From contig NZ_CP059692.1 of NCBI RefSeq assembly GCF_014058705.1, positions 248,001-312,000 of the forward strand: a stretch of DNA of 64,000 bases. Direction: 5' to 3'. Below, piece after piece: positions 1 through 61,291 of this stretch; positions within the stretch are counted from its first letter, which is position 1; each line of letters begins with the position of its first letter. Source of the stretch: Aureimonas mangrovi. GTDB lineage: Bacteria; Pseudomonadota; Alphaproteobacteria; Rhizobiales; Rhizobiaceae. Position numbers and translations under genes: made by a program. Under the pieces are notes generated by a model. It saw only the letters and a program-made list of their open reading frames with translations. It was not told the origin of the DNA and searched no databases.

Positions 1-480
1 GAGGAAGCCGCGCGCGATGGCGGCGCGGTCGGGATGCTCGACGAGGCTGCCATCGGCCTGCCGGCGCGCGAAGGCGAAGCCCTCCGGCAATCTTCCGGGG
101 GTTTCCCCGCGCACCGGCACAAGATCGGGCGGCGGACGGTGAAGCGGTACAGTGAAGCGCGCGGTGCGCTCGGCGGACGCCTCGATCACCGGCTCGTAGT
201 AGCCCGTCACGAACCCCCGGCGGCCGCCTTCCGGCACGACCAGGGCCGGTGAGAAGAAGCGCTCGAAAAATTCACGTGAATCATCGACGGGCCTGAGGGC
301 CGCATGCGCCGCCGGCCGCAGGGAAGCGGCGGAGACGCCGAGCGCGCCGCTCTTCGGCGGCGCATCCGAGAGGATGCGTGCCGCGGAACGCCGAAACGCG
401 TCGAGCGCCGGCGCGAAATCCGCCGCACGCCAGCCGGGAAGCTGCTCGAAGGCGAGGGGGCGAAAGGCCGCGTCGTTCAT
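1..480 (-). CDS. mltA: MltA, membrane-bound lytic murein transglycosylase A (3' end outside window)
   Basis: The first 160 codons are visible; the rest runs off the left edge. The translation starts MNDAAFRPLAFEQLPGW and carries the MltA signature GFVTGYYEP at about residues 89-97. MltA cleaves the MurNAc-GlcNAc bond of peptidoglycan with formation of 1,6-anhydro-MurNAc. No signal peptide is seen at this N-terminus, as is common for alphaproteobacterial MltA entries, so its route to the periplasm is unclear from here. The ATG lies 18 bases past the stop of the Tim44-like gene on the same strand, so the two are probably co-transcribed. A weak parS-like 16-mer lies inside the gene at 268-283, read here as Asp-Ser-Arg-Glu. 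Confidence 0.88.
   Translation of the reverse strand, partial: MNDAAFRPLAFEQLPGWRAADFAPALDAFRRSAARILSDAPPKSGALGVSAASLRPAAHAALRPVDDSREFFERFFSPALVVPEGGRRGFVTGYYEPVIEASAERTARFTVPLHRPPPDLVPVRGETPGRLPEGFAFARRQADGSLVEHPDRAAIARGFL
268..283. other. Weak parS-like site (12 of 16) inside mltA
   Basis: The 16-mer AAATTCACGTGAATCA keeps the 10-bp palindromic core TTCACGTGAA of the ParB site TGTTTCACGTGAAACA but has four mismatches in the flanks. It is the outermost and weakest of eight such sites in the window, so binding by ParB is doubtful. Confidence 0.35.
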
Positions 481-498
481 GGCGCGCGGGCCTTCAGC

Positions 499-1194
499 CT
501 ATTCGTCTTCGGATTCGGTCTCGACGAGCTTCCAGTTCGGATCGCGGGCGCGCGTGTCGCGCGCGAAGGTCCACACGTCGCGGACCTCGACCACGGTCTC
601 CGGGTCGCCCTCGATCACCTCGCCGCTCGGCTTGACCACCGCCGAGATGAGCTGAGAGACGATGCGCACCGTCACCAGCGCCTCGCGGTCCTTCAGCTCG
701 GCGCCGACGATCTTGGCCTCGTCGATGCCGACGAAGGAGGACTGCATGCGCTCGCCGCGCTCCTCGCGGCCGGCGATCGCCGCCTCGAAGCCCTGGTAGA
801 CCTCCGGCGACAGAAGATTGCGCAGGAGCGCGCGGTCACCGTCCGCGAACGCGGTGACGACCATCTCGTAAGCGGCCTTGGCGCCTTCCATGAAGGCCGG
901 CACGTCGAAATCGGGATCGGCATCGCGGATGCGGCGCAGTTCGCTGTTCAGAGGCGTGCCGACTTCGGCGACCGCGTCGATCGTCTCGTAGCTGGCGCGC
1001 GGCGCCGCGCCCGCCTGGCCGGCACGCCGGTTCGGCAGCGTCACCACGTTGCCGGGCTGGGCGCTCGGCTGCTCGTTGCGCGAGTATGGATCATAGGGCG
1101 GACGCTCGTTGCCGGTGCGCCGGCCGAGCACGGAGCGCAGCTGGTAGAGCACGATCACCGTGACAACAATGAAGAAGATCGTGCCAAAACCCAT
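499..1194 (-). CDS. Tim44/TimA-family membrane-anchored protein
   Basis: A 231-residue protein. The start MGFGTIFFIVVTVIVLYQL is one N-terminal membrane helix (residues about 4-19). A polar, proline-rich linker follows, then a C-terminal domain of the Tim44-like type (NTF2 fold) from about residue 75. The mitochondrial homologue links the TIM23 channel to Hsp70. The bacterial role is less settled and this is a family assignment only. The reading frame is open further upstream, but the extra residues overlap the divergent fxsA and look like antisense; the ATG at 1194 gives the usual family N-terminus. It is followed closely by mltA, a common alphaproteobacterial pairing. Confidence 0.85.
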   Translation of the reverse strand: MGFGTIFFIVVTVIVLYQLRSVLGRRTGNERPPYDPYSRNEQPSAQPGNVVTLPNRRAGQAGAAPRASYETIDAVAEVGTPLNSELRRIRDADPDFDVPAFMEGAKAAYEMVVTAFADGDRALLRNLLSPEVYQGFEAAIAGREERGERMQSSFVGIDEAKIVGAELKDREALVTVRIVSQLISAVVKPSGEVIEGDPETVVEVRDVWTFARDTRARDPNWKLVETESEDE

Positions 1195-1372
1195 CCTGCC
1201 GTCTTTCGCCCGTATCGTGGAAAGAAGTTCGCAGGATATAGTCGTCCCACGTCGCGCATTCAAATTCGCGCCGATCCATCCTATCTCGGAGTTCCGTGGC
1301 CGCGACAAGGCATTCCAGCTTCGCCGGCGATCAAAACCTCGTCGCAGCGCGAACGACCAGCGAGATCCTTCC

Positions 1373-1924
1373 ATGCCTCTCCTTCTGGCCCTTCTCTCCC
1401 TTCTGGCGCTGCCGCTGGCCGAGATCGCCGTGTTCATCGCCGTCGGATCCGAGATCGGTGTCGGCTGGACGCTGCTCCTGATCGTCGCCTCCATGCTGGT
1501 CGGCATCCTTCTCGTGCGCCGCCAGAGTTTCTCGACGCTGCAGGCCGCCCGCGCCCAGGCGCGCGCCGGCAATGTCCCCGCCCGCGAGATGGCGCACGGG
1601 GCGATGATCGTCTTCGCCGGCATCCTCCTGATCCTGCCGGGCTTCATCACCGACGTCCTCGGCCTTCTCCTCATGGTGCCGCCGATCCGTGACCTCGTCT
1701 GGGGTTGGCTCTCGCGCCGCGTCGTCGTCACCAGCGTCCGCGGCGGGCCGGCAACGGCCTCTCGCGGTTCCCCGCGCGGCCCTTCGCGAGGCGGCGTGGT
1801 CGATCTCGACGAGGGCGAGTTCACGCGCCGTCCCGACCTCGACGGCGGCGAACCGGATCCGGACAGCCCCTGGCGCGACGAGCCCCGCACGATCGGGGAC
1901 GATACGCCGCGCGAGGGTCGCTAG
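1373..1924 (+). CDS. fxsA: FxsA family cytoplasmic membrane protein
   Basis: 183 residues starting MPLLLALLSLLALPLAEIAVF. Hydrophobic segments at about 1-20, 26-45 and 75-100, including LILPGFITDVLGLLLMVPP, match the FxsA family; E. coli FxsA relieves exclusion of phage T7 by the F plasmid. The C-terminal third (from about residue 125) is a charged tail rich in Arg, Asp and Pro that is longer than in E. coli. The gene is divergent from the Tim44-like gene and about 200 bases upstream of secB. The normal cellular function of the family is not known. The start was chosen because the frame upstream of 1373 has no family similarity. Confidence 0.85.
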   Translation: MPLLLALLSLLALPLAEIAVFIAVGSEIGVGWTLLLIVASMLVGILLVRRQSFSTLQAARAQARAGNVPAREMAHGAMIVFAGILLILPGFITDVLGLLLMVPPIRDLVWGWLSRRVVVTSVRGGPATASRGSPRGPSRGGVVDLDEGEFTRRPDLDGGEPDPDSPWRDEPRTIGDDTPREGR

Positions 1925-1931
1925 GCCGATC

Positions 1932-1968
1932 GTCCTTTCGGCCGCGCAGAGGTCTCTGACCTATCGAA
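1932..1968 (+). repeat. Degenerate intergenic repeat, copy A
   Basis: The blocks GTCCTTTCG, CGCGCA and TATCGAA occur in this order with gaps of 2 and 13 bases. The same three blocks recur between rho and the YbaK-like gene at 12392-12425 with gaps of 2 and 10. A small hairpin GGTC-tct-GACC sits between the last two blocks here. Origin and function are unknown. Confidence 0.35.
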
Positions 1969-6027: not shown

Positions 6028-6225
6028 AACGGTCTCCTCCGGTGTCAACGCACCCCTTCCGGGGTCCTTAAGTTTTTATTCAAACTTCCCGGCCTAGTTT
6101 TAGGAGTGCCGATGGAACGATTCCATCGCTCGTGGATTCGATTTGAGCGCCGCGCGCAAGGGACGTCGTGCGAACGGCCCCATGATTCTGCGGTGCATGT
6201 GGGAATCGGTGGGCGACGGCCCCAA

Positions 6226-6245
6226 GCGAAATCGATCGATTTCGC
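6226..6245. repeat. Perfect 20-bp palindrome in the candidate origin
   Basis: GCGAAATCGATCGATTTCGC reads the same on both strands. It ends three bases before the first DnaA-box-like site. It could be a binding site for a dimeric regulator or a DNA-bending protein; no family assignment is possible. Confidence 0.7.
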
Positions 6246-6525
6246 GCCTGCGGATAAGCCGGTCTGTCATCCACAGGTCACATGCAGGCGCGGCTTGTGC
6301 CGGGCGCTTCTGTGGATCGTGGACGAATCGCCCGCCGGGTTCGCCCAGCCGAGACACTCTTCCACGACTGTCCCCGCAGCCTCTCCCGGCAGATCGCCTT
6401 GAATCTGCTAGCAACTGGCCTGTTTTCCGCAGCGCGTGTCCGCACGGCGCAGCGCCGGCCCGACGGCCCCTGCGTCAGAGGGGACAGCCTCGCTCGCGGC
6501 TGTGAATTCCCGTGATCCACCGAGT

Positions 6526-6568
6526 CATAGAATCAGAAATCTCTCTCTTTAAGAATTTCTTTTCTATG
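6526..6568. other. AT-rich interrupted inverted repeat upstream of hemE (possible unwinding element)
   Basis: Outer arms CATAGA (6526-6531) and TCTATG (6563-6568) and inner arms AGAAAT (6535-6540) and ATTTCT (6555-6560) flank CTCTCTCTTTAAGA. GC content is far below the surroundings. It suits a DNA unwinding element or the hemE promoter region; the hemE start is 62 bases downstream. Confidence 0.4.
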
Positions 6569-6630
6569 GGAGCCTGTGCGAGACACGCTGGCGTCCGGCA
6601 TCCCTCAGCCGGGAAACGAGCAGGACCTTC

Positions 6631-8841: not shown

Positions 8842-9372
8842 ATGGCGGACAGCAGACCCGAACGCTTCTCGATCATCGTGATGGGGCCGTCCGGCGTCGG
8901 CAAGACGACGACGGCCGAAGGCATCGCGAACCACCTCGGGCTCGCCTTCGCCGAGGCGGACGAATTCCATCCGCCGGCAAATATCGAGAAGATGTCGAAC
9001 GGCATTCCCCTCGACGACGACGACCGCGCGCCCTGGCTCGAGACGCTCCGGGACTGGATCAGCGAGAAGGCGCGCGGCGGCGAGGATACGGTGCTGACGT
9101 GCTCGGCGCTCAAGCGCCGCTATCGCGACGTTCTGCGCGAGGCGGACGCGCGCGTGCGCTTCCTGGAGCTCGTGATCGATCAGGAAACGGTGGCGGGCCG
9201 GCTTGCCAAGCGCAAGGGCCACTACATGCCCGCCTCGCTTCTCGCCTCGCAGTTCTCCGCGCTGGAGGAACTCGGCGCGGACGAGGACGGCGTGAAGGTG
9301 ACGGTCGATGCCGCGCCCGAAATCGTCATCGAGCGCGCCATCGAGGCCATGGGCCTTGCCGGCAAGGACTGA
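8842..9372 (+). CDS. gntK: Gluconokinase
   Basis: 176 residues. It phosphorylates D-gluconate to 6-phosphogluconate with ATP, feeding the Entner-Doudoroff or pentose phosphate pathway. P-loop GPSGVGKT is at residues 15-22; EADEFHPPANIEKMSNGIPL is the usual substrate-side stretch, and CSALKRRYRD and KGHYMPASLL are also typical of GntK. The ATG at 8842 has AAGGGAGAG just upstream. Followed by a GntP-family permease, so the two form an uptake-and-phosphorylation pair. Confidence 0.94.
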   Translation: MADSRPERFSIIVMGPSGVGKTTTAEGIANHLGLAFAEADEFHPPANIEKMSNGIPLDDDDRAPWLETLRDWISEKARGGEDTVLTCSALKRRYRDVLREADARVRFLELVIDQETVAGRLAKRKGHYMPASLLASQFSALEELGADEDGVKVTVDAAPEIVIERAIEAMGLAGKD

Positions 9373-9431
9373 CACTCTCGCCTTCGGGTGCAACATTCCG
9401 GCCCGCTAGAGGCCTTTCGGAGGGATATGCC

Positions 9432-10811
9432 GTGAACGGCTTCGAACAGACCATGGGCGCGGGGCCCCTTCTGGGGATCGCCGCGGGGGCGATCGCCCTG
9501 ATCCTCGTCCTCATCATCTATTTCCGCATCCACGCCTTCATCACGCTGATCCTCGTCAGCCTCCTGACGGCGCTCGCGGCTGGCATTCCGGGCAGCCAGA
9601 TCATCTCGACGCTGACGACGGCCTTCGGATCGACGCTCGGCGGCGTGGCCCTGCTCGTGGCGCTGGGCGCCATGCTCGGCCGGCTTCTCGAGGTTTCGGG
9701 CGGCGCGCAGGCGCTGGCCGACGGGCTGATCGCGCGCTTCGGAGACAAGCGCGCTCCCCTCGCGCTCGGCATAGCCTCGCTGATCTTCGGCTTCCCGATC
9801 TTCTTCGACGCGGGCCTCGTCGTGATGCTGCCGATCGTCTTCACCGTCGCGCGGCGCCTCGGTGGGGGTCTCCTGCGCTACGGTATTCCCGTCGCGACGG
9901 CCTTCTCGGTCATGCACGTCTTCGTGCCGCCGCATCCCGGCCCCGTCGCCGCCTCCGAGCTTCTGGGCGCCGATGCCGGCCTCCTGATCCTCGTGGGCCT
10001 CCTCGTCGCTATCCCGACCTGGATCGTTGCCGGTCAGCTCTTCGGCCTGTGGATCGGCAAGCGCATCGTCCTGCCCGTGCCCGACATCCTGTCCGGCGGC
10101 CCGCAGGTCGAGGATCGCACCGATCCGCCAAGCCCGGCGACGGTGGTCGGCCTGCTGCTGCTGCCCTTGGCCCTCATCTTCCTCAACACTGGCCTCGACT
10201 TCGCCCGCGCGCAGGGCTGGGTGAACGCCGACGCCGAATGGTTCGGCATCGCACGCGCCGTCGGCTCGACGCCGGTCGCGCTGCTCGTCGCGGTGCTGGT
10301 AGCGTCCTACGTCATCGGCGTGCGGCGCGGGCGCAGCGCCAACGAGGTCGAGTCGAGCCTTGATTCGGCGCTCGGCCCGGTCTGTTCCATCATCCTCATC
10401 ACCGGCGCGGGGGGCATGTTCGGCGGTGTCCTGCGCGCTTCCGGCATCGGTGACGCGCTGGCCTCCGCGCTGGATGGCGTCGGCCTGCCGGTCTTCGTCG
10501 CGGGCTTCGTCATCGCCACTGCGCTGCGTGTTGCACAGGGCTCGGCAACCGTTGCTCTCATCACGGCGGCCGGCCTCGTCCAGCCGGCGATCGCGGCCTC
10601 CGGCTACGAGGGCGTGCAACTCGCCGCGATCGTCCTGTCTCTCGCGGCGGGATCCGTGATGCTCTCCCATGTGAACGATTCGGGCTTCTGGCTTGTCGGC
10701 CGCTTCTTCCAGATGGACGTGAAGACGACCTTCAAGACCTGGACGGTGATGCAGACCCTCGTCGGGCTCATGGGCTTTGCCCTCTCCGGCCTGATCTTCT
10801 TTCTCGCCTGA
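9432..10811 (+). CDS. GntP-family gluconate:H+ symporter
   Basis: 459 residues with about 12-14 hydrophobic segments spread over the whole length. FGFPIFFDAGLVVMLPI, VPPHPGPVAASELLGAD and the C-terminal SVMLSHVNDSGFWLVG are GntP family signatures. The GTG at 9432 is preceded by CGGAGGG with a 7-base gap, which decides the start; an ATG at 9453 is possible. Substrate is inferred as gluconate from the gntK neighbour 59 bases upstream. No GntR-type regulator is next to the pair, so how it is controlled is not visible. Confidence 0.9.
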   Translation: MNGFEQTMGAGPLLGIAAGAIALILVLIIYFRIHAFITLILVSLLTALAAGIPGSQIISTLTTAFGSTLGGVALLVALGAMLGRLLEVSGGAQALADGLIARFGDKRAPLALGIASLIFGFPIFFDAGLVVMLPIVFTVARRLGGGLLRYGIPVATAFSVMHVFVPPHPGPVAASELLGADAGLLILVGLLVAIPTWIVAGQLFGLWIGKRIVLPVPDILSGGPQVEDRTDPPSPATVVGLLLLPLALIFLNTGLDFARAQGWVNADAEWFGIARAVGSTPVALLVAVLVASYVIGVRRGRSANEVESSLDSALGPVCSIILITGAGGMFGGVLRASGIGDALASALDGVGLPVFVAGFVIATALRVAQGSATVALITAAGLVQPAIAASGYEGVQLAAIVLSLAAGSVMLSHVNDSGFWLVGRFFQMDVKTTFKTWTVMQTLVGLMGFALSGLIFFLA

Positions 10812-10837: not shown

Positions 10838-10853
10838 TGATTCACGTGAAACG
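10838..10853. other. parS-like site (14 of 16) upstream of rho
   Basis: TGATTCACGTGAAACG differs from TGTTTCACGTGAAACA at two positions. It is one of only two intergenic sites in the set and lies between the gluconate permease and rho. Confidence 0.7.
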
Positions 10854-12956: not shown

Positions 12957-14295
12957 AGCCTTCAACTCCGGCGCTGGATTCGCCGGCGAAACGATCGTCG
13001 CCTTGTCCAGCGGCGCCCTTCCCTCGGGCGTCGCCGTCCTGCGGGCCAGCGGCCCCGGTGCGCGCGATCTCCTCGTGAACCTTGCCGGAGGCGTCCCGGA
13101 AGCGCGCCGCGCCAGCCTGCGCACGATCCGCGACAGCGACGGCCAGACCGTTGATCGCGGCCTCGTGCTGTTCTTTCCAGGGCCGAATTCGGTGACAGGC
13201 GAAGACCTCGCCGAATTCCATCTCCACGGCAGCCGCGCGACCGTTTCGGCCTTCATAACGGCGGCCTGTGCGGTGCCGGGCGTCCGCCTCGCCGAAGCCG
13301 GCGAGTTCACCCGGCGCGCCTTCGTCAACGGCCGCATCGACCTGACGGAGGCGGAAGGTCTCGCCGATCTTCTGGCCGCTGAAACGGACGGTCAACGCCG
13401 CCGTGCGCTGACGCAGACCGGTGGACGGTTGCGCGCGCTCTACGAGGGCTGGGGCAGCCAACTTCTCGAAGCCCGCGCGCTTCTCGAGGCCGACTTCGAT
13501 TTCGCCGACGAAGGCGAGGTCTCGGACGAGGTCGCGGAGGGTGTCGCCCAGGCGGTGGAAACGCTCGCTTCCGAGATCGAAGCTCACCTTGCGGGTGCCG
13601 GCCGCGGCGAACTGATGCGCGAGGGTTTTCGCGTTGCGCTCGCCGGTTCACCCAATGCCGGCAAGTCCAGCCTTCTCAACGCGCTGGCGGGGCGGGAAGC
13701 CGCCATTGTCACGGACATTCCCGGCACCACCCGCGATCTGGTGGAGGTGACGCTCGACCTCGGCGGCGTCCTGGTGCGGCTGACCGACACGGCGGGCCTT
13801 CGCGACACTTCCGACGCGGTCGAGGCTATCGGGGTCGCGCGGGCACGCGATGCGATGGCGCGGGCCGACCTCGTTCTGCTGCTGGTGCCGCCGGGAGAGC
13901 CGCTCGCCGAGGCGCAGATTCACGTGAAACAGATCGAGCCGGACCGCCTCGCGATCCTGCGGTCCAAGGCTGACCTTGACGGTGAGGAGTTGTCCGGGCT
14001 GGCGATCTCGGTCAGGACCGGTAGCGGCCTCGGCCAACTCGAGCGTCTGATCGCGGCGCGCGCCCAAGAGGCCGCCGGCGATCCCGACCTGCTGGTGCCG
14101 ACCCGCGCGCGCCACCGCGCGGCCCTGGAGGCGGCGCTGGCGATCCTGCGCGAAGCCCCGCCGGCTTCGCTTCCCCCGGAAATTCTCGCCGAAAACCTGC
14201 GCCGCGCCGCCGGCGCGTTGGAGGCGCTCACCGGCCGCCAGGGCGTGGAAGACCTTCTCGACGTGATCTTCTCGCAGTTCTGTATCGGCAAGTGA
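12943..14295 (+). CDS. mnmE: tRNA modification GTPase MnmE
   Basis: 450 residues. With MnmG it makes 5-carboxymethylaminomethyl-uridine at the wobble base of several tRNAs. N-terminal tetrahydrofolate-binding domain beginning [19 protein letters not shown], helical domain, G domain with P-loop GSPNAGKSS at about 235-243 and DIPGTTRDL (G2), DTAGLRDT (G3), and the invariant C-terminal CIGK. The only in-frame start near the family N-terminus is TTG at 12943, overlapping the end of the upstream gene. The G domain contains a parS-like site at 13916-13931, read as His-Val-Lys-Gln. Confidence 0.95.
13916..13931. other. parS-like site (14 of 16) inside mnmE
   Basis: AGATTCACGTGAAACA; mismatches to TGTTTCACGTGAAACA at positions 1 and 3. 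It lies about 3 kb left of parA. Confidence 0.7.
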
Positions 14296-16213: not shown

Positions 16214-16857
16214 CGACAGGCCTGGCACAGGACCGCGCGGCAGTTCTCTCCCGCAACGGCGTTTCACGTGAAACGCTGGAAAGGCTGGATCACTACGCTG
16301 ATCGTCTGAGAGCTTGGCAGAAGACGACGAATCTGGTCGCGCCATCGACACTGGATGCGCTGTGGTCGCGGCATCTGGAGGAAGGGTTGCGGCTCTATCC
16401 GCTGGTCGGAGCGGCGCCGAAGATCGTCGATCTCGGCTCGGGCGGCGGGCTGCCGGGTCTTGTCCTCGCGATCAAAGCGAAAGACGCACAGCCCGGCCAG
16501 AGCGTCACGCTGGTGGAGAGCAACAGCAAGAAGGCGGCCTTCCTGCGCACGGTGATTCGCGAGCTGGCCCTCCCGGCGGACGTTCGTGCCGAGCGGATCG
16601 AGCAGGCGGGAGCGGCATTGGCCACGGCCGATGTAGTGACCGCGCGCGCTCTCGCGTCGCTGGATGTCCTGCTCGGCTTCGTTTCAGGCCATATCGGCGA
16701 CCACACGCGGTGCCTTTTCCCCAAGGGGCGCCAACATGAGGCCGAAATCGCAGAGGCCTCTGCCCATTGGCGTTTCGACATGGTAAAGCATCCGTCAACG
16801 GGCGAAGAGGGCTCGGTCGTCCTGGAGCTGCGCTCCATTCGACCCATCGGCGCCTGA
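16210..16857 (+). CDS. rsmG: 16S rRNA (guanine527-N7)-methyltransferase RsmG
   Basis: 215 residues. It methylates G527 of 16S rRNA with S-adenosylmethionine; loss gives low-level streptomycin resistance in other bacteria. The SAM-binding loop [16 protein letters not shown] is at about residues 72-87, and the N-terminal helix [22 protein letters not shown]-type (here [12 protein letters not shown]) precedes [12 protein letters not shown]. Codons for VSRET at about residues 18-22 are formed by a palindromic parS-like site at 16260-16275. The start overlaps the mnmG stop by 4 bases. Confidence 0.95.
16260..16275. other. parS-like site (14 of 16, perfect 14-bp palindrome core) inside rsmG
   Basis: CGTTTCACGTGAAACG. 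The whole 16-mer is palindromic; only the outermost pair differs from TGTTTCACGTGAAACA. It is 650 bases upstream of parA and identical to the site at 39286-39301. Confidence 0.85.
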
Positions 16858-16911: not shown

Positions 16912-17721
16912 GTGGACATTCCGACACGGCCTGCGATGCGCGTCATTACCATCGCCAACCAGAAGGGTGGCGTCGGCAAGACGACCACGGCCATCAATCT
17001 CGCGACGGCGCTCGCCGCGATCGGCAAGCGTACGCTGCTGATCGACCTTGACCCGCAGGGTAACGCCTCGACGGGCCTCGGGATCGACAAGGACGACCGC
17101 GCGACCTCTTCCTACGACGTTCTCGTGGAGCGCGCCTCGATCACGCAGGCGGCGATGGCGACCGCGGTGCCCGATCTCTCCGTCGTCCCATCGACGCTCG
17201 ACCTTCTGGGCGTCGAGATGGAGATCGCTGGTGCCGGCGGTCGTGCCTACCGGCTGCGCGATGCCCTGCACTTCCACGGGATGGAGGATGCGGCCTTCGA
17301 TTTCGTCTTGATCGATTGCCCCCCCTCGCTGAACCTCTTGACGATCAACGCGATGGCCGCCGCGGACGCGATCCTCGTGCCGCTGCAGTGCGAGTTCTTC
17401 GCGCTGGAAGGTCTGAGCCAGCTTCTGGAAACCGTGGAGCAGGTGCGTGACACGCTGAACCCCACGCTCGGCCTGCATGGCATCGTCCTCACCATGTATG
17501 ACGGCCGCAACAATCTCGCCGCACAGGTGGTCAAGGACGTCCGCGCCTATATGGGCCGGCATGTCTACGAGACGGTGATCCCGCGCAATGTGCGCGTTTC
17601 GGAAGCGCCGTCCTTCGGCAAGCCGGCGATCCTCTACGACATGAAGTGCACTGGCAGTCAGGCCTATATTCGACTCGCCTCCGAAATCATTCAGCGCGAA
17701 CGCGAGCAGGTCGCCGCATGA
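16912..17721 (+). CDS. parA: Chromosome partitioning ATPase ParA
   Basis: 269 residues from GTG, or 261 from the ATG at 16936. It is a Walker-type ATPase that binds DNA non-specifically and moves ParB-parS complexes. Deviant Walker A KGGVGKTTT is at about residues 18-26, LLIDLDPQGNASTGLG is the A' motif, and LIDCPPSLNLLTINA is Walker B. GTG is preferred because a weak GGGAAA precedes it and relatives carry a short extension before RVITIANQKGG. It is followed by parB after 58 bases. Together with the parS-like sites and origin-like gap in this window it forms the chromosome segregation system. Confidence 0.95.
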   Translation: MDIPTRPAMRVITIANQKGGVGKTTTAINLATALAAIGKRTLLIDLDPQGNASTGLGIDKDDRATSSYDVLVERASITQAAMATAVPDLSVVPSTLDLLGVEMEIAGAGGRAYRLRDALHFHGMEDAAFDFVLIDCPPSLNLLTINAMAAADAILVPLQCEFFALEGLSQLLETVEQVRDTLNPTLGLHGIVLTMYDGRNNLAAQVVKDVRAYMGRHVYETVIPRNVRVSEAPSFGKPAILYDMKCTGSQAYIRLASEIIQREREQVAA

Positions 17722-17779: not shown

Positions 17780-18775
17780 ATGAGCGAGGACACGTCGCGC
17801 GCGCGCCTCGGGCGCGGTCTGGCTTCGCTGATCGGAGCGGGCGGCACTGCGGGCGCGGGGCCCAGGACGCCCCTGCCCTTCGCGGGACCGGGAGGCGCGG
17901 GCGAGCGCAAGGTCGAGATCGGCCGCCTTTCGCCGAACCCGAAGAATCCGCGTCGGCAGTTCACGCAGGCCGACCTCGATGACCTTACGGCGTCGATCAA
18001 GGTTCACGGCGTCGTGCAGCCGATCCTCGTGCGCCAGCTTTCGGGCGGCGAGACCGGCTATGAGATCGTGGCGGGTGAGCGTCGCTGGCGTGCCGCCAAG
18101 GCGGCGGGGCTCTCCGAGGTTCCCGTGGTGGTGCGCGCCATCGGCGACCGCGAGTCGCTCGAGATCGCGATCATCGAGAACGTCCAGCGTGCCGACCTCA
18201 ACGCCATCGAGGAGGCGCGCGGCTACCAGATGCTCGTGGACGAGCACGCCTACACGCAGGCCGATCTCGCGGAAGTGCTGGGAAAGAGCCGAAGCCATGT
18301 CGCCAACACGCTGCGCCTGCTGAAACTGCCGGAAGCCGTCCTGACGATGGTCGAGCGCGGCGAGCTCTCTGCGGGCGCCGCGCGCACGGCGGTCTCGATG
18401 GACGACCCGGAAGCCTTCGCACGCCGCATCGCCGATGGCGGGCTCAGCGTGCGCGAGGCCGAGGAGGCGGCACGCACCGAGACGGCCGCTCCGCCCAAGG
18501 CGCGCCCACGCGGCGCGAAGGCGAAAACACCGCAGCCGGTGGCGCCGGTGGGCGTGATGCCCGCGCCGCAAGCGCCGGCCGTCGTGAAGGACGCCGATAC
18601 GCTGGCACTGGAGGCGCTTCTGACGGAAGCGCTGTCGATGCCGGTTTCGATCGATCTCGCCGGACGTGGCGGGCGGCTGTCGCTGAGCTTCGCCGATCTC
18701 GACCAGCTCGACGACATCTGCCGGCTTCTGCAGGCGCGCCGCACCGCGTCGGAACCGCGCATCCGCGAACTCTGA
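17780..18775 (+). CDS. parB: Chromosome partitioning protein ParB (CTPase, parS binding)
   Basis: 331 residues. ParB binds parS, closes into a CTP-dependent clamp and spreads along DNA. The N-terminal ParA-interaction segment ARLGRGLASLIG is at about residues 8-19, the CTP-binding GERRWRAAK at about 99-107, box II ENVQRADLNAIEEA at about 134-147, and then the helix-turn-helix around LAEVLGKSRSHVANTLRLL. A variable Ala/Pro linker and a C-terminal dimerisation domain (LALEALLTEALSMPVSI onward) follow. The gene ends 3 bases before the convergent holA end. Confidence 0.96.
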   Translation: MSEDTSRARLGRGLASLIGAGGTAGAGPRTPLPFAGPGGAGERKVEIGRLSPNPKNPRRQFTQADLDDLTASIKVHGVVQPILVRQLSGGETGYEIVAGERRWRAAKAAGLSEVPVVVRAIGDRESLEIAIIENVQRADLNAIEEARGYQMLVDEHAYTQADLAEVLGKSRSHVANTLRLLKLPEAVLTMVERGELSAGAARTAVSMDDPEAFARRIADGGLSVREAEEAARTETAAPPKARPRGAKAKTPQPVAPVGVMPAPQAPAVVKDADTLALEALLTEALSMPVSIDLAGRGGRLSLSFADLDQLDDICRLLQARRTASEPRIREL

Positions 18776-20404: not shown

Positions 20405-23012
20405 TGACGATCCTTCCCGGAACGACGACCACACGCTTGGGTGTCGCACCATCCAACAGGTTCTTCACCGCGTCGAGAGCCAGCGCGGCACGCTCCACGT
20501 CTTCGCGCGCCGCATCGGCCGAAACCCGCAGGTCCGCGCGTTTCTTGCCGTTGACCTGGACGGGCAGGACGATCTCGTCATCGACGAGGAGCGCTGGATC
20601 GACCGTCGGCCATGGCGCCTGCGCCGCAAGTCCGCCTTCGCCGAGCACGGCCCAGCATTCCTCGGCCAGATGCGGCATCATCGGCGCGACGAGCCGCGTC
20701 AGGATGGACAGCGCCTCGCGGGCAGCCGTGCGCAGCGCCGGATCGCGCTCCAGCGCTTCGGGCTTGAGGCTCGCGGCCAGAAGGTTCACCAGCTCGTAGA
20801 GCCGCGCCACGGCCTTGTTGAAGGCGAGGCGCTCGATGTCGTCGCCGACGCCGGCGGCCGTGCGATGCGCGGCGCGACGAACCTCGTCGGCCGCCGGGCT
20901 CGCGCCGGTATCGCCGCCGCCGGTATCGCCCAGCGCCTCCGCCGTCTCGGCGACAAGGCGCCAAACGCGCTGTACGAAGCGGTGGGCACCCTCGGCGCCG
21001 GCCTCGGTCCAGATCACGTCCCGCTCGGGCGGGGAGTCCGACAGCATGAACCAGCGCGCCGTGTCCGCGCCGTAGCCGGTGATGATGTCGTCCGGGTCGA
21101 CGACGTTCTTCTTCGACTTCGACATCTTCTCGATGGAGCCGATCTCGACGCGCTCGCCTGTCGAGAGGCGCCGCGCGGTGCGCACGCCGTCCACCTCCTC
21201 GATGGCGATGTCGGCCGGCGCCACCCATTCGCCGCGGCCGTTCTCGCCGACGATCCGATAGGTCTCGTGGACGACCATGCCCTGCGTGAACAGGCCCTTG
21301 AAGGGCTCGTCCAGCGAAAGGTGGCCGGTGGCGCTCATCGCCCTGGTGAAGAAGCGCGAATAGAGGAGGTGCAGGATCGCGTGCTCGATGCCGCCGATAT
21401 ACTGGTCCACCGGCAGCCAGCGATCGGCGATCGCGGGAACGGTGGGCTCGGGCGCACGCGGCGCGGTGAAGCGCGCGTAGTACCACGAGGAGTCCACGAA
21501 GGTGTCCATCGTGTCTGTTTCACGTGAAGCATCGCTGCCGCACTGCGGGCATTTCGCTCGGCGCCAGGTGGGGTGGCGATCCAGCGGATTGCCCGGCTTG
21601 TCGAAGTCGATGTCGTCCGGCAGCCTGACCGGCAGGTTCTCGCGCGCCTCCGGCACGGTGCCGCAGGCTTCGCAATGCAGGACCGGGATCGGGCAGCCCC
21701 AGTAGCGCTGGCGCGAGACGCCCCAGTCGCGCAGGCGGAACTGCGTCTCGCGCTGGCCCCAGCCGGCCTTCTCGAAGATTTCGAGAGAGCGATCCATCGC
21801 CTGCTGGCAGGTCTGCACCGTGCCCGGCTCGCCGACCCAGCGCACGTAGCGCACTTCCTGCGTCTTCGGTGGCACGAAGGCGGTGTCTGTGACGCGCTCA
21901 TCCGAATCCAGCGGCACGAAGACGTCGAGAACCGGAAGGCCGTATTTGCGCGCGAAGTCGAGGTCGCGCTGGTCGTGCGCAGGGCAGCCGATGACGGCGC
22001 CTGTGCCGTAGTCCATCAGCACGAAATTGGCGATGTAAAGCGGCAGCTCCCAGCTTGGGTCGGCCGGATGCGTGACCTTGATGCCGGTGTCGAGGCCGAG
22101 CTTTTCGGCGGTGTCGATCTCGGCCTGCGAGGTGCCATGGCGCCGGCATTCCTCCGCGAAGGCGGCGACCTTGGGGTCGCGTTCGGCGAGCGCCCTGGCC
22201 AGCGGGTGGTCGGCGGCGATCGCCGCGAAGGTCGGCCCGTACATGGTGTCGGCGCGGGTGGTGAAGACCGGCAGCGTCTCGAAGCCCTCGGGCGCACCCT
22301 TCAGGCCGAATGCGAAGGAGAGGCCCTGCGACTTGCCGATCCAGTTCTTCTGCATCACACGCACCTTCTCCGGCCAGCCCGGCAGGTGGTCGAGCGCGGA
22401 GAGGAGATCCTCGGCGAAATCGGTGATGCGGAAGAACCACTGCGTCAGCTCGCGGCTTTCGACGAGCGCGCCCGAGCGCCAGCCGCGCCCGTCGATCACC
22501 TGCTCGTTGGCGAGCACGGTCATGTCGACCGGGTCCCAGTTGACCTTGGACTTCTTGCGGTAGGCAAGGCCCTTCTCCAGCATGTCGAGGAAGAGCATCT
22601 GCTGGCGGTGATAGTATTCGACGTCGCAGGTGGCGAATTCGCGGGACCAGTCGAGCGACAGGCCCATCGACTTCAGCTGCTTGCGCATCGTCGCGATGTT
22701 CTCGTAGGTCCACTTGGCCGGGTGGACCTTGTTCTGCATCGCGGCGTTCTCGGCCGGCATGCCGAAGGCGTCCCAGCCCATCGGATGCAGGACGTTGAAA
22801 CCCTTGGCGCGCTTGTAGCGGGCGACGACGTCGCCCATCGCATAGTTGCGTACATGCCCCATGTGAATGCGCCCGGAGGGATAGGGGAACATCTCAAGGA
22901 CGTAGTAGGTCTCGCCGGGCGCTTCCGCGTCGGTCTCGAAGATGCGTGCCCCGGCCCAGGCCTCCTGCCACTTCGGTTCGGCGCTGCGCGCGTTGTAGCG
23001 TTCGATCGGCAT
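20391..23012 (-). CDS. leuS: Leucyl-tRNA synthetase
   Basis: 873 residues, class I synthetase that charges tRNALeu and edits mischarged products. HIGH-type motif HMGH is at residues 50-53 within [14 protein letters not shown], the KMSKS motif at about 628-632, and the connective-peptide editing domain with [13 protein letters not shown] lies between. The ATG at 23012 gives the family N-terminus [16 protein letters not shown]. It contains a parS-like site at 21516-21531 that encodes Ser-Arg-Glu-Thr in an insertion-prone region. Divergent from yggS, with a 115-base gap. Confidence 0.97.
21516..21531. other. parS-like site (15 of 16) inside leuS
   Basis: TGTTTCACGTGAAGCA, one mismatch (position 14) to TGTTTCACGTGAAACA. 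About 3 kb right of parB; one of the two best matches in the window. Confidence 0.85.
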
Positions 23013-25657: not shown

Positions 25658-27613
<1,956 letters not shown>

Positions 27614-30033: not shown

Positions 30034-30354
30034 TCACGATGTGGAGGCGAGCTTCATCAATGCGATGCCGCCGACGATCATCGCGGCTGCCGCAAGGCGC
30101 ATGGGTGAAGCGCTCTCGCCGAAGAACGCGATGCCGACCACGAGCGCGCCGACGGCGCCGATGCCTGTCCATACGGCATAGGCCGTGCCGAGCGGCAGGG
30201 TGCGCATGGCGCCGGCCAGAAGGAAGAAGCTGGCGAACATGAAGACGATCATCGCCGCTGTCGGCACGGGGCGGGTGAAGCCCGCCGAAAGCTTCATCGC
30301 GCTCGCCCAGACGATTTCGAACATGCCGGCCAGAAGAAGAAGGATCCAGGCCAT
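30034..30354 (-). CDS. sugE: Gdx/SugE guanidinium exporter (SMR family)
   Basis: 106 residues, four membrane helices. SMR dimers of the Gdx type export guanidinium in exchange for protons. The central Glu is at residue 13 in AGMFEIVWA, and TLPLGTAYAVWTGIGAVGA is the Gdx-type third-helix signature, which separates it from the EmrE multidrug branch. A double ACGR-loop hairpin (guanidine-II riboswitch type) lies 21-65 bases upstream, which independently supports guanidine as the substrate. GGGAGG ribosome site 5 bases before the ATG. Confidence 0.94.
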   Translation of the reverse strand: MAWILLLLAGMFEIVWASAMKLSAGFTRPVPTAAMIVFMFASFFLLAGAMRTLPLGTAYAVWTGIGAVGALVVGIAFFGESASPMRLAAAAMIVGGIALMKLASTS

Positions 30355-30374
30355 GAGGGCCTCCCTCGCAAAAG

Positions 30375-30419: not shown

Positions 30420-30437
30420 TCTGCGATGCGATCTGGC

Positions 30438-38928: not shown

Positions 38929-41900
38929 TCAGGACACTACGCCATTTTCGCGCGACAGGTCGAGGAGCAGGCCGACGGCGAGGCCGAGCCGCGCGACCGA
39001 CGTCTCCCCCGAGCCCGCCATGCGCAGCATCTGGTCGCGCAGGCGCGTCAACGGTTCGCCGCCGGCTTCTGCCCAGGCGTCGGCCGGTGCCGTGCCGCCC
39101 TGCGCGAGAGCCTGCGCCGTCAGCGCCCGGCGTGCGGTGGAGAGCTGCGCGCCGGCTCGCTCCAGCGCCAGCATCTCGTAATAGTCCGCAGGGCGCAGCG
39201 AGCGCAGTGCGCCCTCGACGCGGCCGAGCCGCAGATGCCGCGTGACGCCGAAATAGGCCGAAAGCGCCTGGTCGCGACTGGCCCCCGTTTCACGTGAAAC
39301 GGCGACGATGTCCGGCACGAGGGCGAGGAGCGGCAGGAGCGCGACTTCCTTTGCCACCGCTTCGGGAACGCCGGCGCCGGCATGCTCGGCGAGGCGCGCC
39401 TCGTATTCCTCGCGGGCGCGGTCGCTGGAAAGTTCGAGGACACGCGGCCGGAGCGCTTCGCAGGCCGCGCGAAGCTCGGCGACCGCTTCCGAAAGCGACT
39501 GGCCGGCCGGCAGGTTGCGGACGGCCCAGGCGGTGGTCTGCATCAGGAAGCTGCGGGTGGCGCGATAGAGCGCGAACTGCGCCACACTCGTGATCGTTCC
39601 GTCCAACGCGTCGATCGCGGCATAGAGCGCGCCCGTGCCGAGGCCGTCCGAGGCGGCGACGAAGGCGCGCACGGAGCGTGAGGGCAGCGCGCCCGCCGCA
39701 TCGGCGAAGGTGATCGCGAAGGCGGGACCGAGGCGGTTGACGAAATCGTTGGCGAGCGCCGTGGCCACGATCTCCCGGCGCAGGCGGTGGCCGTCGATCT
39801 CGCCGGCGAACTCCGCCCGCATCGCATCAGGGAAATAGGCGTGCAGCCGATCGCCCAGATACGGATCGTCCGGTAGGTCGCTTTCCAGGATGCGGTCGAA
39901 GAGATCGATCTTGCCGTAGGCGAGGAGGACGGCGAGTTCGGGGCGCGTCAGCCCCCGCCCGGCCGCGCGCAGATCGGCGATGGCCGCGTCGGACGGCAGC
40001 GTCTCCACCTCCCGCGAGAGTTCGCCGCGGTCTTCCAGAACCGTCATCAGCCTGGCCTGGGCGGGCAGGCGCATTGCGCCATTGTCTTCGTCCAGCGAGA
40101 GGGCAAGCGTCTGCTGGTAGTTGTTGGCGAGGACGAGCGCGGCGACGTCCCCGGTCATCTTCGAGAGCAGTGCGTTGCGATCGTCGCGCGGCAGGCGGCC
40201 ATCGCTCATGGGGCCCTTCAGCGCGATCTTGATGTTGACCTCGACGTCCGACGTGTTGACGCCGGCCGAATTGTCGATCGCGTCCGTGTTGATGCGCCCG
40301 CCCGCCCGCGCGAACTCGATGCGGCCGCGCTGCGTGGCGCCGAGATTGGCACCCTCACCCACCACCTTGGCGCGCAGATCGCGGCCGGTGACGCGCACCG
40401 AATCGTTGGCGCGGTCTCCCGCGTCGGCGTTCGATTCGGCGCTGGAACGGATGTAGGTGCCGATGCCGCCGAACCAGAGAAGGTCCACCGGCGCCTTCAG
40501 GATGGCATTGATGATCTCGGCAGGCGTGCCCTCTCGGCGATCCCAGCCGATGGCTTCGGCCGCTTCCGCCGGCAGGCGCACGCGCTTCTCGCGCCGGGAG
40601 ACGATCAGCCCGCCCTTCGAGAGAAGCGCCTTGTCATAGTCGGCCCAGGAGGAGCGCGGCAGGGCGAAGAGCCGCTCGCGCTCGGCGAAGGAGGACGCCG
40701 GGTCCGGATCGGGATCGATGAAGATGTCGCGATGATCGAAGGCGGCGACGAGCTTCGTCTGGCGCGACAGCAGCATGCCGTTGCCGAAGACGTCGCCCGA
40801 CATGTCTCCGCAGCCCGCGACCGTGAAGGGCTCGACCTGAATGTCGCGGTCCATCTCGCGGAAGTGGCGTTTCACCGCCTCCCACGCGCCGCGCGCCGTA
40901 ATGCCCATGCCCTTGTGGTCGTAACCGGCCGACCCGCCGGAGGCAAAGGCGTCGTCGAGCCAGAACTCCTCGGCCTGCGCGATGGCGTTGGCCGTGTCGG
41001 AGAAGGTCGCCGTGCCCTTGTCGGCGGCGACGACGAAATAGGGGTCCGGGCCGTCATGAGCGAGGACGCGGGGCGGCGTGACGGTTTCCTCGCCGACCGC
41101 ATTGTCGGTGATCGACAGGAGCGAAGCGATGAAGACGACATAGGCCGAGCGGCCGGCCTCGAACCAGGCGTCGCGGCGCGATGCGTCCGGCAGGCGCTTC
41201 GGGTAGAAGCCGCCCTTGGCGCCGACCGGCACGATCACCGCGTTCTTGACCTGCTGCGCCTTCACGAGGCCGAGCACTTCGGTGCGATAGTCCTGGCTGC
41301 GGTCCGACCAGCGGAGGCCGCCGCGCGCGACGCGCCCGAAGCGCAGATGGACGCCTTCGACACGCGCGTCGAAGACGAAGATCTCGCGGAAGGGCACAGG
41401 CTGCGGCAGGCCGTCCAGCGCGTGGGGATCGAACTTGAAGGCAAGCGCGGGCGTCACGGCGCCGGGGCGCGACTCGGCCTCGGCCGACGGATCGCCCAGC
41501 GCGTAGAAATTGGTGCGCAGCGTCGCCAGCACGCCTTGCGTGAAACGGCGCAGCACGCGGTCCTCGTCGAGACTGTCCACCTCGTCGAGCGCGGCAAGGA
41601 TCTCCGCCGTCAGGCGATAAGCCTTCGCGCCGCGCTCGCGGGCGCGGGCGGTGAGCGGGTCCTCCTCGCCCTCCTCGGAGCGGGGCGGCGCCGGCTCGCG
41701 CGCCGCGTCCGGGTCGAAGGCGGCGGCGAAGAGATCGAACAGCGCGCGGGCGAGCGCGGGGTGGCGCAGGAGCGTGGCGGCGAGGAAGGCGTCGGTGAAG
41801 GCGAGCCCCGTCTGGCGCAGATAGCGCCCGTAGGCGCGCAGGACATTCGCCTCCTGCCATGTGAGCCCGGCCTGGAGGACGAGCGCGTTGAAGCCGTCGT

Positions 41901-48760: not shown

Positions 48761-49839
48761 GGCACGGCCTCGATGGCGCGGTCCCGCCCCTCGGCCTTGG
48801 CACGGTAGAGCGCGGCATCGGCGCGCGTCAGCGCCGCGGCGATCGCCTCGCCGTCGCGGGTGTGGGCAATGCCGATGCTCACGGTCATGCCGAACTCGGC
48901 ATCGGGCAGCGCGATGTGGCGGCGGCGCACATTGGTGAGGATGCGCTCCGCGACGCCTCGGCCCTCCTCCAGATGCGTGTCGGGGAGGGCGACCACGAAC
49001 TCCTCACCCCCGAAGCGCGCCACCACGTCGCCGACGCGGGCGCTCGCGCGCAGCGTTTCGGCAAGGACGCACAGCGCCGTATCACCGACATCGTGGCCGT
49101 AGCGGTCGTTGATCGACTTGAAGTGATCGACGTCGACGATCATCAGCGTGAAGCCCTTGCGCCACGACGCCGAGCGCAGGCCCTTCTCGGCCGCGTCGAA
49201 GGCGCGCCGGTTCGGCAGGCGCGTCAGAGGATCGGTCAGTGCGTCGTCGGCCAGCGCCTTCTCGCGCGCGATCAGCTTGTTCTCGCGCGTCATCATCGCG
49301 CCGAGGACCTGCGTGGCGAAGAGCGCCGAGCCTGCGAGGCTGCTCACGACGGTGAGAACGTAGCCGAGTTCGACTGAGCCGAGGAGGACGAGAACGAAGC
49401 CCGCGTTCAGCGACAGGCCGAGGCCGAGATAGAAAAGGCCGAGCGCCGTGACCGAATGGCGCTTGAACCAGAGCTGGCGCCAGACGAGCCCGACGGTCAG
49501 CGACATGAGGAGCGTTCCGAGCGCGATCGGAACGCCCGAGCCGCCGAGCGCGATCCGGTAGGCCGCGGCGATGGTGCCGGTGATCACGGCGGCGACCGGG
49601 CCGACGAAGGCTGCCGCCATGCCGACCATGATGGTGCGCACATCGATGATGACGCCGGGCAGGAGCATGGTCGGCGTCATCATGGCGGCGATGGCGCCGC
49701 CGCCGAAGACGAGCCCGTGCAGGACGGCACGCTGCAGGCGCGTGGCCGGCAGGCGCTGGATGGTGCCGTAGAGAACGGCAACGAGCGCCATGAGGCCGAG
49801 GCCGTTGAAGAAGCTCGCGAGAAGATGCGTGTTCGCCAT
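48682..49839 (-). CDS. Membrane diguanylate cyclase (5TM-LYT plus GGDEF)
   Basis: 385 residues. Six or so N-terminal membrane helices to about residue 185 contain the 5TM-LYT-type PGVIIDVRTIMVGMAAAFVGP; the GGDEF domain (about 195-360) has LTDPLTRLPNRRAF, VDVDHFKSINDRYGHDVGD and active site GGEEF at 277-281. RVGD at 268-271, five residues before GGEEF, is the inhibitory I-site, so product inhibition by c-di-GMP is expected. The C-terminal 22 residues are a Pro/Ala-rich tail encoded antisense to zapE (79-base overlap). ATG at 49839 preferred to a start 11 codons upstream. Confidence 0.93.
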   Translation of the reverse strand: MANTHLLASFFNGLGLMALVAVLYGTIQRLPATRLQRAVLHGLVFGGGAIAAMMTPTMLLPGVIIDVRTIMVGMAAAFVGPVAAVITGTIAAAYRIALGGSGVPIALGTLLMSLTVGLVWRQLWFKRHSVTALGLFYLGLGLSLNAGFVLVLLGSVELGYVLTVVSSLAGSALFATQVLGAMMTRENKLIAREKALADDALTDPLTRLPNRRAFDAAEKGLRSASWRKGFTLMIVDVDHFKSINDRYGHDVGDTALCVLAETLRASARVGDVVARFGGEEFVVALPDTHLEEGRGVAERILTNVRRRHIALPDAEFGMTVSIGIAHTRDGEAIAAALTRADAALYRAKAEGRDRAIEAVPQISAPTRPSSAPALGAPRLAPQRAP

Positions 49840-51221
<1,382 letters not shown>

Positions 51222-60400: not shown

Positions 60401-60447
60401 GGGGAGAGGCGGCCGGCGGCCTGGCCGCCAGCCTCGGAACCGACAAG

Positions 60448-60487
60448 AAAAAGGCCGCTGCGCGGGACGACGCGCAGCGGCCTTTTT
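60448..60487. terminator. Bidirectional intrinsic terminator between lpdA and ppa
   Basis: AAAAAGGCCGCTGCGCG, loop GGACGA, CGCGCAGCGGCCTTTTT. The 17-bp stem has an A-run on one side and a T-run on the other, so it can stop both lpdA (+) and the pyrophosphatase gene (-). Confidence 0.92.
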
Positions 60488-60527
60488 CGTTTGCCGGCCC
60501 TCCAGTTCGGAGGCGCCGGCAAGCTCG

Positions 60528-61184
60528 TTACTGCGCGGCGCTCTCGCCTTCCGCGCCGGCTTCGGCATTGTCGTTCGCGGCCGAATCCTGCGTGCGGTAG
60601 GCCTCGATCGCTTCATCGACCATCGCGACCGACGTCGCGGCATCCTCATAGCCCGTCAGCTCGACGACCTTGCGGCCCTCGGGGAGCTGCTTGTAGACGC
60701 GGAAGAACGCCTCGAGACGATCGATTTCGGCCGCCGGCATGTCCGACAGTTCCTGGATGGCGTCGTACTGCGGGTCGACGTCCGAGACCGGAACCGCGAT
60801 GATCTTGTCGTCTTCCTCGCCGCCGTCGATCATGTTGAGCGTGCCGATGGCGCGCACACGGATCAGCGCGCCAGGCACGATCGGCTCGCGGGTGTAGACG
60901 ATGGCGTCCAGCGGATCGCCGTCGCCGCCGAGCGAGGACGGGATCGAGCCGTAGTTGGCCGGGTAGACGACCGGCATGACCTGATAGCGGTCGACGAAGA
61001 CGTGACCAGTTTCGGCGTTGATCTCGTACTTGGTGAAGGAGCCCGCCGGAATCTCGATGACAGCGTTGAACTCGCCGCCTTCCTCGGGCTGCGGATAGGC
61101 GTAGGGCGACACGTATTCCTGCGCAAGCGCGGGCGTTGCGAGGACAGACGCGGCCAGAAGGCCCGCCTTGAAAAGCTTGGTCAT
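60528..61184 (-). CDS. ppa: Exported family I inorganic pyrophosphatase
   Basis: 218 residues. Hydrolyses PPi to phosphate. A clear signal peptide (MTKLFKAGLLAASVLATPALA, cut before QEYV) precedes a complete soluble PPase domain: EIPAGSFTKYEI, FVDR, YPANYG, DGDPLD (metal-binding Asp residues), EEDDK and FFRVYKQLPEG. All the catalytic residues I can align with E. coli Ppa are kept. The C-terminal tail is acidic (ending AGAEGESAAQ). Ordinary Ppa is cytosolic, so periplasmic location is unusual. A parS-like site lies upstream at 61276-61291. Confidence 0.9.
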   Translation of the reverse strand: MTKLFKAGLLAASVLATPALAQEYVSPYAYPQPEEGGEFNAVIEIPAGSFTKYEINAETGHVFVDRYQVMPVVYPANYGSIPSSLGGDGDPLDAIVYTREPIVPGALIRVRAIGTLNMIDGGEEDDKIIAVPVSDVDPQYDAIQELSDMPAAEIDRLEAFFRVYKQLPEGRKVVELTGYEDAATSVAMVDEAIEAYRTQDSAANDNAEAGAEGESAAQ

Positions 61185-61275
61185 GAGATGATCACCTTCG
61201 CGTCTGATGGAACGCGACCGCCGATAAAGGCAACCGGCGACGGACGGGTAACGGACAGATGACATTTCGATGACG

Positions 61276-61291
61276 TGTTTCACGTGAATCA
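61276..61291. other. parS-like site (15 of 16) upstream of ppa
   Basis: TGTTTCACGTGAATCA, one mismatch (position 14) to TGTTTCACGTGAAACA. It is intergenic, 43 kb right of parB. Confidence 0.8.

Follow-up and report, generated by a model that had tools for sequence, protein, structure and literature searches.

Does the 64,000-nucleotide stretch of Aureimonas mangrovi DNA analysed here (the window) belong to the centromere of its chromosome, and how far does that centromere extend? We consider it very probable (about 0.93) that the palindromes scattered around its parA and parB genes are parS sites for the ParABS system of the chromosome itself, to which ParB would bind, and that they form a wide centromere of about 150 kb around oriC. 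On this reading it is a normal chromosomal ParABS centromere with parS-type sites that are ordinary in themselves; the spread over about 150 kb is less ordinary.

Palindromes and partition genes in the window

We searched the window for the exact core TTCACGTGAA and for the 16-mer TGTTTCACGTGAAACA with up to three mismatches, each against 100 shuffles. The core was found seven times (271, 10841, 13919, 16263, 21519, 39289 and 61279; shuffle mean 0.01). The 16-mer was also found seven times (10838, 13916, 16260, 21516, 27399, 39286 and 61276; shuffle mean 0.05), always with one or two mismatches, and in neither search did any of the 100 shuffles reach seven. The features of the window are:

268..283, no strand, weak parS-like site AAATTCACGTGAATCA (12 of 16 positions), in the 5' end of mltA or immediately ahead of it
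6049..6630, no strand, candidate oriC in the gap between maf and hemE, with DnaA-box-like 9-mers, GANTC sites and a GC-skew signal
10838..10853, no strand, parS-like site TGATTCACGTGAAACG, flanked by a GntP permease gene and rho
13916..13931, no strand, parS-like site AGATTCACGTGAAACA inside trmE
16260..16275, no strand, parS site CGTTTCACGTGAAACG in gidB (rsmG), at the 5' end, translated as V-S-R-E-T
16912..17721, + strand, parA, Walker-type partition ATPase of 269 aa with ParA/MinD-family NCBIfam matches, directly upstream of parB
17780..18775, + strand, parB, partition protein of 331 aa matching the ParB_N domain, TIGR00180 and Caulobacter ParB 6t1f
21516..21531, no strand, parS site TGTTTCACGTGAAGCA inside leuS
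27399..27414, no strand, parS-like site TGTCTCACGTGAGACA inside acs
39286..39301, no strand, parS site CGTTTCACGTGAAACG in gdh (NAD-glutamate dehydrogenase), translated as V-S-R-E-T and found genus-wide
61276..61291, no strand, parS site TGTTTCACGTGAATCA between a pyrophosphatase gene and a TraB/gumN-family gene

The original prediction had described eight palindromes built on one core. Their coordinates were correct and seven hold the exact TTCACGTGAA, but the one at 27399 is a relative without the core. Seven sites do match parS at 14 or 15 of 16 positions, as had been claimed. The exception is AAATTCACGTGAATCA at 268, with four mismatches the most doubtful of the eight. The earlier chance expectation of fewer than 0.02 matches in the window was of the right order, and parA and parB lie where they had been placed. 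None of this genome's sites is a perfect 16-mer; some relatives carry perfect ones.

The gene order is rho-trmE-gidA-gidB-parA-parB, about 10-12 kb from the predicted oriC candidate. The protein encoded by parB is the single match to the ParB_N domain in the genome (116.5 bits; E up to 0.001). It matches TIGR00180 with 184 bits and Caulobacter ParB 6t1f with an E value of 2e-59, and it contains the GERRW and ENVQR motifs, which we take to be CTP-binding. In the alignment to 6t1f it keeps the equivalents of R173 and G201. This pair is of the parS type, as opposed to Q173 and R201 of the Noc type, according to PMC7383237. We therefore rejected an identification as the nucleoid occlusion protein Noc, given the R and G at 173/201 and a TIGR04285 match of 206 bits against a cut-off of 315. 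Among the best 25 of 30 NCBIfam matches of parA, none passed its own cut-off. The MipZ family PF09140 had three matches of 39-43 bits (cut-off 20.7), one of them ParA itself, and this family also matched all 14 control genomes. The sequence features of a ParABS system were found: a parA-parB operon near the predicted oriC, a ParB_N protein with parS-type residues, and palindromes mainly in the origin region.

Distribution of the sites over the genome

In the single-contig genome of 3,485 kb (3.49 Mb), all 11 exact TTCACGTGAA cores lie at 192.3-343.7 kb, which is 4.3% of the contig. So short an arc has a chance probability of about 3e-13, assuming a circular chromosome and random site placement. 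The original prediction of a large origin-proximal partition locus is supported, since the cores occupy one 151-kb arc and are not spread over the chromosome. The array has parAB and the maf-hemE oriC candidate at its centre and reaches from -73 to +78 kb from parB. Its extent had been claimed too small; the window cuts the array short. Four exact cores lie beyond the window (genome 192.3, 197.4, 231.4 and 343.7 kb), as does TGTTTCACGTGAGTCA at genome 232.9 kb. The site said to lie 43 kb from parB is that at 61276, 43.5 kb from the parB start, and the claimed fall of site density with distance holds roughly.

Of the window's 50 DnaA-box-like 9-mers (up to two mismatches), 6 fall in the hemE-linked oriC candidate (genome about 254.3 kb), as do 8 of the 84 GANTC sites; no other 600-base bin holds as many of either. 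Between 160 and 360 kb the cumulative GC skew has its minimum at 261 kb, about 7 kb from the candidate. The 13 origin-region sites lie on both sides of it.

With up to three mismatches the 16-mer matched 18 places in the whole genome, 12 of them at 190-310 kb. The six outside the array are at 164, 461, 577, 1,687, 1,775 and 3,401 kb; on a circular chromosome the last would be about 350 kb from parB. The 461.7-kb site, CGTTTCACATGAAACC, falls within a PAPS_reduct-family gene or immediately ahead of it, and the relative of that gene in G003 has a perfect site just upstream. We do not claim the two as counterparts, since their centres differ.

An origin of the site set by chance or base composition is next to impossible and is refuted by the shuffles and by the patterns read backwards, which gave one match (10-mer core) and none (16-mer) genome-wide. 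Nothing speaks for it as a cause of the whole set; poor flanks (4 and 5 mismatches) mark two of the 11 exact cores, at window 268 and genome 343.7 kb, which may each be chance occurrences. A short palindrome could also suit other proteins, so the sites might belong to an unrelated regulator with a CACGTG core. We set this aside as very improbable: the 11 exact cores are all grouped around parAB and the oriC candidate, the gidB site near parAB recurs in other Alphaproteobacteria, including many named Hyphomicrobiales loci, and the sequence is close to the consensus TGTTNCACGTGAAACA given in PMC7022226.

The preferred reading, parS sites of the chromosome's own ParABS, suggests the following course by analogy with studied bacteria. 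ParB dimers would load onto each 16-mer, shut as CTP clamps and slide to adjacent DNA. The loaded sites would jointly mark a zone of about 150 kb flanking oriC. ParA would pull the marked zones apart, and SMC condensin would be loaded there. Numerous dispersed sites would make the centromere wide and redundant, not point-like.

Turnover of sites and the gdh codons

We grouped sites at the same aligned position in 18 genus genomes. These groups leave out places with three mismatches and no exact core (here 164430, 190696 and 461677, and several in G005, G012 and G016), the genome G010 and one G002 site (contig C300); G010 and the core of the G002 site were counted in the gdh test below. This gave 59 groups, 20 common to at least two genomes and 39 found in a single genome. 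Since the groups hold only motif-bearing sites, identity within them is partly by construction. In 15 of 18 genomes the coding scores labelled the site in gidB noncoding, though RsmG models cover the gene in the window, and we therefore did not use the coding/noncoding tallies.

The gidB site is present in all 18 genomes whose sites were taken in and is the oldest of the set. One relative, G003, has the trmE site (13916) at the matching alignment position. The leuS site (21516) has no counterpart at the corresponding position in any of four relatives, nor has the acs site (27399) in any of the three that could be aligned. The aligned position of the 268 site in G003 carries no site, and the 10838 site is gapped in that alignment. 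For the 61276 site, a G003 counterpart lies beside homologous genes; the intergenic gap between them did not align. By these alignments the putative sites turn over, with gidB old, gdh genus-wide and leuS and acs without counterpart in the relatives aligned. This suggests that sites come and go, some of them arising inside enzyme genes and changing their protein.

Codon identity within the site groups is circular because the groups are defined by the site. We replaced it with a test on gdh in which orthologues were found by protein, not by site (19 genus genomes and 8 outgroup sequences). The full core was present in 17 of 19 genus genomes and in none of the 8 outgroup gdh sequences, and GTT-TCA-CGT stood at the site in all 19. 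One codon was common to at least 15 genomes in 43 of 313 alignment columns, and it ended in A or T in just four, all columns of the site. The joint usage of these four codons is about 1.1e-5 given the amino acids. This codon pattern indicates that the parS site fixes rare codons in gdh. Where gdh and parB share a contig, the site lies 20-101 kb from parB. It is a far site conserved at codon level across the genus, and in G005, G011, G013, G014 and G016 it lies on the other side of parB.

This conservation bears on the rather unlikely alternative that a few sites near oriC alone act as the centromere and the far ones are weak or idle, with no effect on segregation. The 39 single-genome groups (near and far pooled) are in keeping with it. 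Caulobacter has its five strong sites packed into 5 kb, and of its seven putative sites two show weak binding (PMC5815017). According to PMC7022226, one parS near oriC suffices for origin positioning and segregation. However, chance yields far fewer sites than seen, and the gdh site is kept at codon level genus-wide, even where it is on the opposite side of parB.

It is still less likely that the far sites serve another ParB role, such as local gene regulation, instead of segregation. Five relatives have a site in common in the gap between rpsP and rimM; in G006 its distance from parB is 405 kb. The A. mangrovi genome has a two-mismatch site in dapF, with its rpsP about 5 kb away, and ParB effects on transcription are described in PMC7022226. 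However, the dapF-rpsP coincidence was spotted post hoc, the sites lie in unrelated housekeeping genes (trmE, leuS, acs and gdh) and between genes, and a genome-wide domain search found no second ParB_N protein.

A bolder reading, offered tentatively and at less than even odds, is that the centromere of the genus is now regional. It would consist of sites dispersed over 150 to several hundred kb: a small conserved scaffold (gidB, gdh) and other, fast-turning sites. New sites would arise in enzyme genes, where selection on the DNA site overrules the protein (V-S-R-E-T in glutamate dehydrogenase, a changed stretch in leucyl-tRNA synthetase), and conserved outposts 300-400 kb away would belong to the same structure.

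Array width and known systems

Sites at least 20 kb from parB on its contig were found in 16 of 18 genus genomes vs one of 11 genomes from other families, where genus counts include sites with up to two mismatches, outgroup counts hold exact cores only, and many genomes are drafts. G017 is the compact-looking genome of the genus, and G023 is the wide outgroup exception, reaching 43 kb. G027 was left out of the distance table since its parB is on a short separate contig. The array of the genus is wider than those of most other families in the sample, which are compact (<10 kb). This is most simply read as a gain of new sites, some in coding sequence, with individual sites coming and going.

The expansion of the centromere-like region over time is named an interesting question in PMC5815017. 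The genus appears to preserve in nature the course of such an expansion: relatives carry different individual sites, orthology allows some of these to be dated, and most of the other families in the sample stay compact. The gdh site would be a case of a DNA site dictating enzyme amino acids, and V-S-R-E-T would be a protein-level sign of a buried parS site. Among the matches listed in our literature search, titles and abstract openings reported no parS sites in Aureimonas and nowhere tied V-S-R-E-T to parS.

Many named loci of other Hyphomicrobiales share the gidB-parAB neighbourhood and its site, and in 9 of 11 genomes sampled from this order (G019-G030) parB likewise has a core 1.4-1.65 kb upstream. 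Unlike here, the exact cores on the parB contig lie within 10 kb of parB in 10 of these 11. Bacillus subtilis is a Firmicute with Noc beside Spo0J, whereas one ParB_N protein was found here. Its Spo0J-parS system has ten sites, eight of them in the ori domain, and the four strongest are spaced by about 5, 13 and 39 kb; we count both as likenesses (PMC7022226, PMC5815017). Streptomyces also has many dispersed sites around oriC, but with a mean of 22.8 (range 11-65), a bias to the right of oriC and linear chromosomes, compared with 13 sites on both sides here (PMC8743542). Caulobacter crescentus ParABS has the same ParB family, the same 16-bp site and sites inside genes. Its five strong sites are confined to one arm, about 8 kb from ori, whereas the A. 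mangrovi array spans about 151 kb on both sides, and in Caulobacter a region of about 500 kb surrounding the native cluster tolerates an added second cluster (PMC5815017).

Distribution of the parS-like sites

The genome is one contig of 3,485,124 bases, and the window covers its bases 248,001-312,000. Within the window, the exact 10-mer palindrome TTCACGTGAA occurs seven times (mean in shuffles 0.01) and the parS consensus 16-mer TGTTTCACGTGAAACA with at most three mismatches also seven times (mean in shuffles 0.05). Eight parS-like sites were listed in the original prediction, and the two motif searches combined recover all of them. The site at 27399 (TGTCTCACGTGAGACA) lacks the core it was said to be built on, while the site at 268 contains the core and is a poor parS match with four mismatches.

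The predicted clustering held in the whole-genome scan, where 11 of 11 exact cores fell within 192,283-343,734 and the control, the motif read backwards, occurred once. For 11 points placed at random on a circular chromosome, an arc this short would arise with a probability of about 3e-13. The 16-mer with up to three mismatches was found at 18 places and its control at none; 12 of the places lie at 190-310 kb and the other six at 164, 461, 577, 1,687, 1,775 and 3,401 kb. Allowing one mismatch in the 10-mer gave 47 places compared to 18 in the control, namely the 11 exact cores and 36 places scattered over the chromosome. The origin-region sites span -73.5 to +77.9 kb relative to parB and flank the oriC candidate on either side.

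The sole two-mismatch site outside the origin region is in dapF (genome 577908-577923; fetched stretch L066:5908-5923), +312 kb from parB and about 5 kb from rpsP. A site in the rpsP-rimM interval is common to five relatives; in G006 its distance to parB is 405 kb, and in the other four it sits on a different contig from parB. This proximity was noticed post hoc, and we treat it as a lead only. The relative G003 carries a perfect parS at G003:C1:585733 (fetched stretch L072:5733-5748); it is flanked by two PAPS_reduct-family genes and lies 443 kb from parB. At 461677 (fetched stretch L065:5677-5692) our genome has CGTTTCACATGAAACC, at a relative of the second of these genes.

The oriC candidate and the predicted binder

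The gene order before the maf-hemE gap is Tim44-like, fxsA, secB, an RNase_T-family exonuclease gene, coaE, aroE and maf. It continues after the gap with hemE, the UPF0093 gene, gluconate kinase and permease genes, rho, trmE, gidA, gidB, parA, parB, leuS and acs, and the NAD-glutamate dehydrogenase gene (gdh) lies farther along. The origin gene order that contains the gluconate kinase and permease genes is usually tight.

Features of the window
6049-6630, maf-hemE gap, oriC candidate
8842-10811, genes for a gluconate kinase and a GntP permease, separating the UPF0093 gene from rho
16912-17721 (+), parA
17780-18775 (+), parB
30034-30354 (-), 106-aa gene call directly downstream of the riboswitch, same strand
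30374-30423 (-), Guanidine-II riboswitch (mini-ykkC), scoring 35.5 bits (gathering score 32)
48760-50259, long interval without gene calls; its stretch 50001-50110 and the oriC candidate are the window's most AT-rich DNA
62480-63454 (-), Phage_integrase-family (tyrosine recombinase) gene

The gap has 582 bases. Of the 50 DnaA-box-like 9-mers in the window, 6 fall inside it, as do 8 of the 84 GANTC sites, which makes it the highest 600-base bin for both. Since both peak there and the cumulative GC skew has its minimum at 261 kb (range examined, 160-360 kb), the gap, at about 254.3 kb, is the likely oriC. The dnaA gene lies near base 421 of the record, about 254 kb from this candidate.

The only ParB_N match in the genome is parB itself. 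The closest solved structure to its product is Caulobacter ParB (6t1f, E 2e-59), and the nearest named ParB is that of Aureimonas altamirensis (63% identity, in a search that may omit entries from this genome itself or its closest kin). Counted along the 6t1f alignment in the numbering of PMC7383237, the residues are R at 173, T at 179, K at 184 and G at 201. According to PMC7383237, R173 with G201 is ParB-type, Q173 with R201 is Noc-type, and positions 179 and 184 vary among ParBs. Because residues 173 and 201 are ParB-type, the protein is predicted to prefer parS. From this sequence evidence we infer that ParB would bind the sites and that they would function as a centromere. MipZ-family matches were weak (39-43 bits), one being ParA itself.

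Reading frames and age of the genic sites

The parS 16-mer has TGA in one frame, which leaves two frames for an intact site within a gene, encoding F-H-V-K or V-S-R-E-T.

Reading of the sites inside genes
trmE site, frame of F-H-V-K, reads I-H-V-K
acs site, frame of F-H-V-K, reads S-H-V-R
gidB site, frame of V-S-R-E-T, reads V-S-R-E-T
leuS site, frame of V-S-R-E-T, reads A-S-R-E-T
gdh site, frame of V-S-R-E-T, reads V-S-R-E-T

Protein search located gdh in 27 of the 31 genomes. The site codons GTT-TCA-CGT are present in 19/19 genus genomes and the next codon is GAA in 17; in G001 and G017 it is GAG, which breaks the core. None of the eight outgroup gdh sequences has the site. These codons are uncommon in the window's genes (GTT 4.8% of Val, TCA 1.3% of Ser, CGT 7.1% of Arg, GAA 24.8% of Glu). 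Among 313 aligned gdh columns, 43 have one codon common to at least 15 of the 19 genomes, and the shared codon ends in A/T only in the four site columns. In G005, G011, G013, G014 and G016 the gdh site is on the opposite side of parB, yet it is retained, even 101 kb away in G016.

Many of the 37 named loci are close kin (Rhodopseudomonas, Afipia), and 36 gave a gidB match. A site with at most one mismatch lies inside gidB or at its matched start in 15 of these 36 and no more than about 210 bases upstream in three further ones; two have a three-mismatch site inside gidB, and 16 have none in gidB or just upstream. A core stands 1.4-1.65 kb upstream of parB in 9/11 outgroup genomes, a distance from parB alone that does not imply placement in gidB. 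Judging from its recurrence in gidB of the named loci and from these outgroup cores, the gidB site is older than the genus.

The leuS site is missing at the aligned position in 4/4 relatives, and the acs site in 3/3 relatives alignable there, with 79-85% identity around both. The simplest reading is that each may be a single gain in this genome. The trmE site has a counterpart at the same aligned position in G003 only. Five other genomes form one group with a site 4.2-4.4 kb upstream of parB, and its G005 member lies about 370 bases from the trmE site position, inside the same alignment.

The site array across the genus

Of all the results, those of the genus-wide comparison are the most useful. 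We grouped 149 sites from 18 genus genomes by aligned position, taking exact cores and, in fetched DNA, sites with CACGTG and at most two mismatches; the 16-mer searches covered five of the 18. This gave 59 groups, 20 common to at least two genomes and 39 singletons. The gidB site is present in 18/18 genomes and the gdh site in 15/18, followed by groups of 12, 10, 9 and 6 genomes.

A site at least 20 kb from parB on the same contig was found in 16/18 genus genomes, the exceptions being G017 and G002, whose parB contig is only 15 kb. The corresponding count in genomes of other families was 1/11 (G023). Some of these outgroups have short contigs, so that distances on the parB contig do not prove compactness. 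Exact cores on contigs other than that of parB numbered 10 over these 11 genomes. On this genomic evidence, it is well supported that the A. mangrovi centromere would be of the ordinary chromosomal ParABS kind, with a site array that appears wide compared to most other families sampled in the order.
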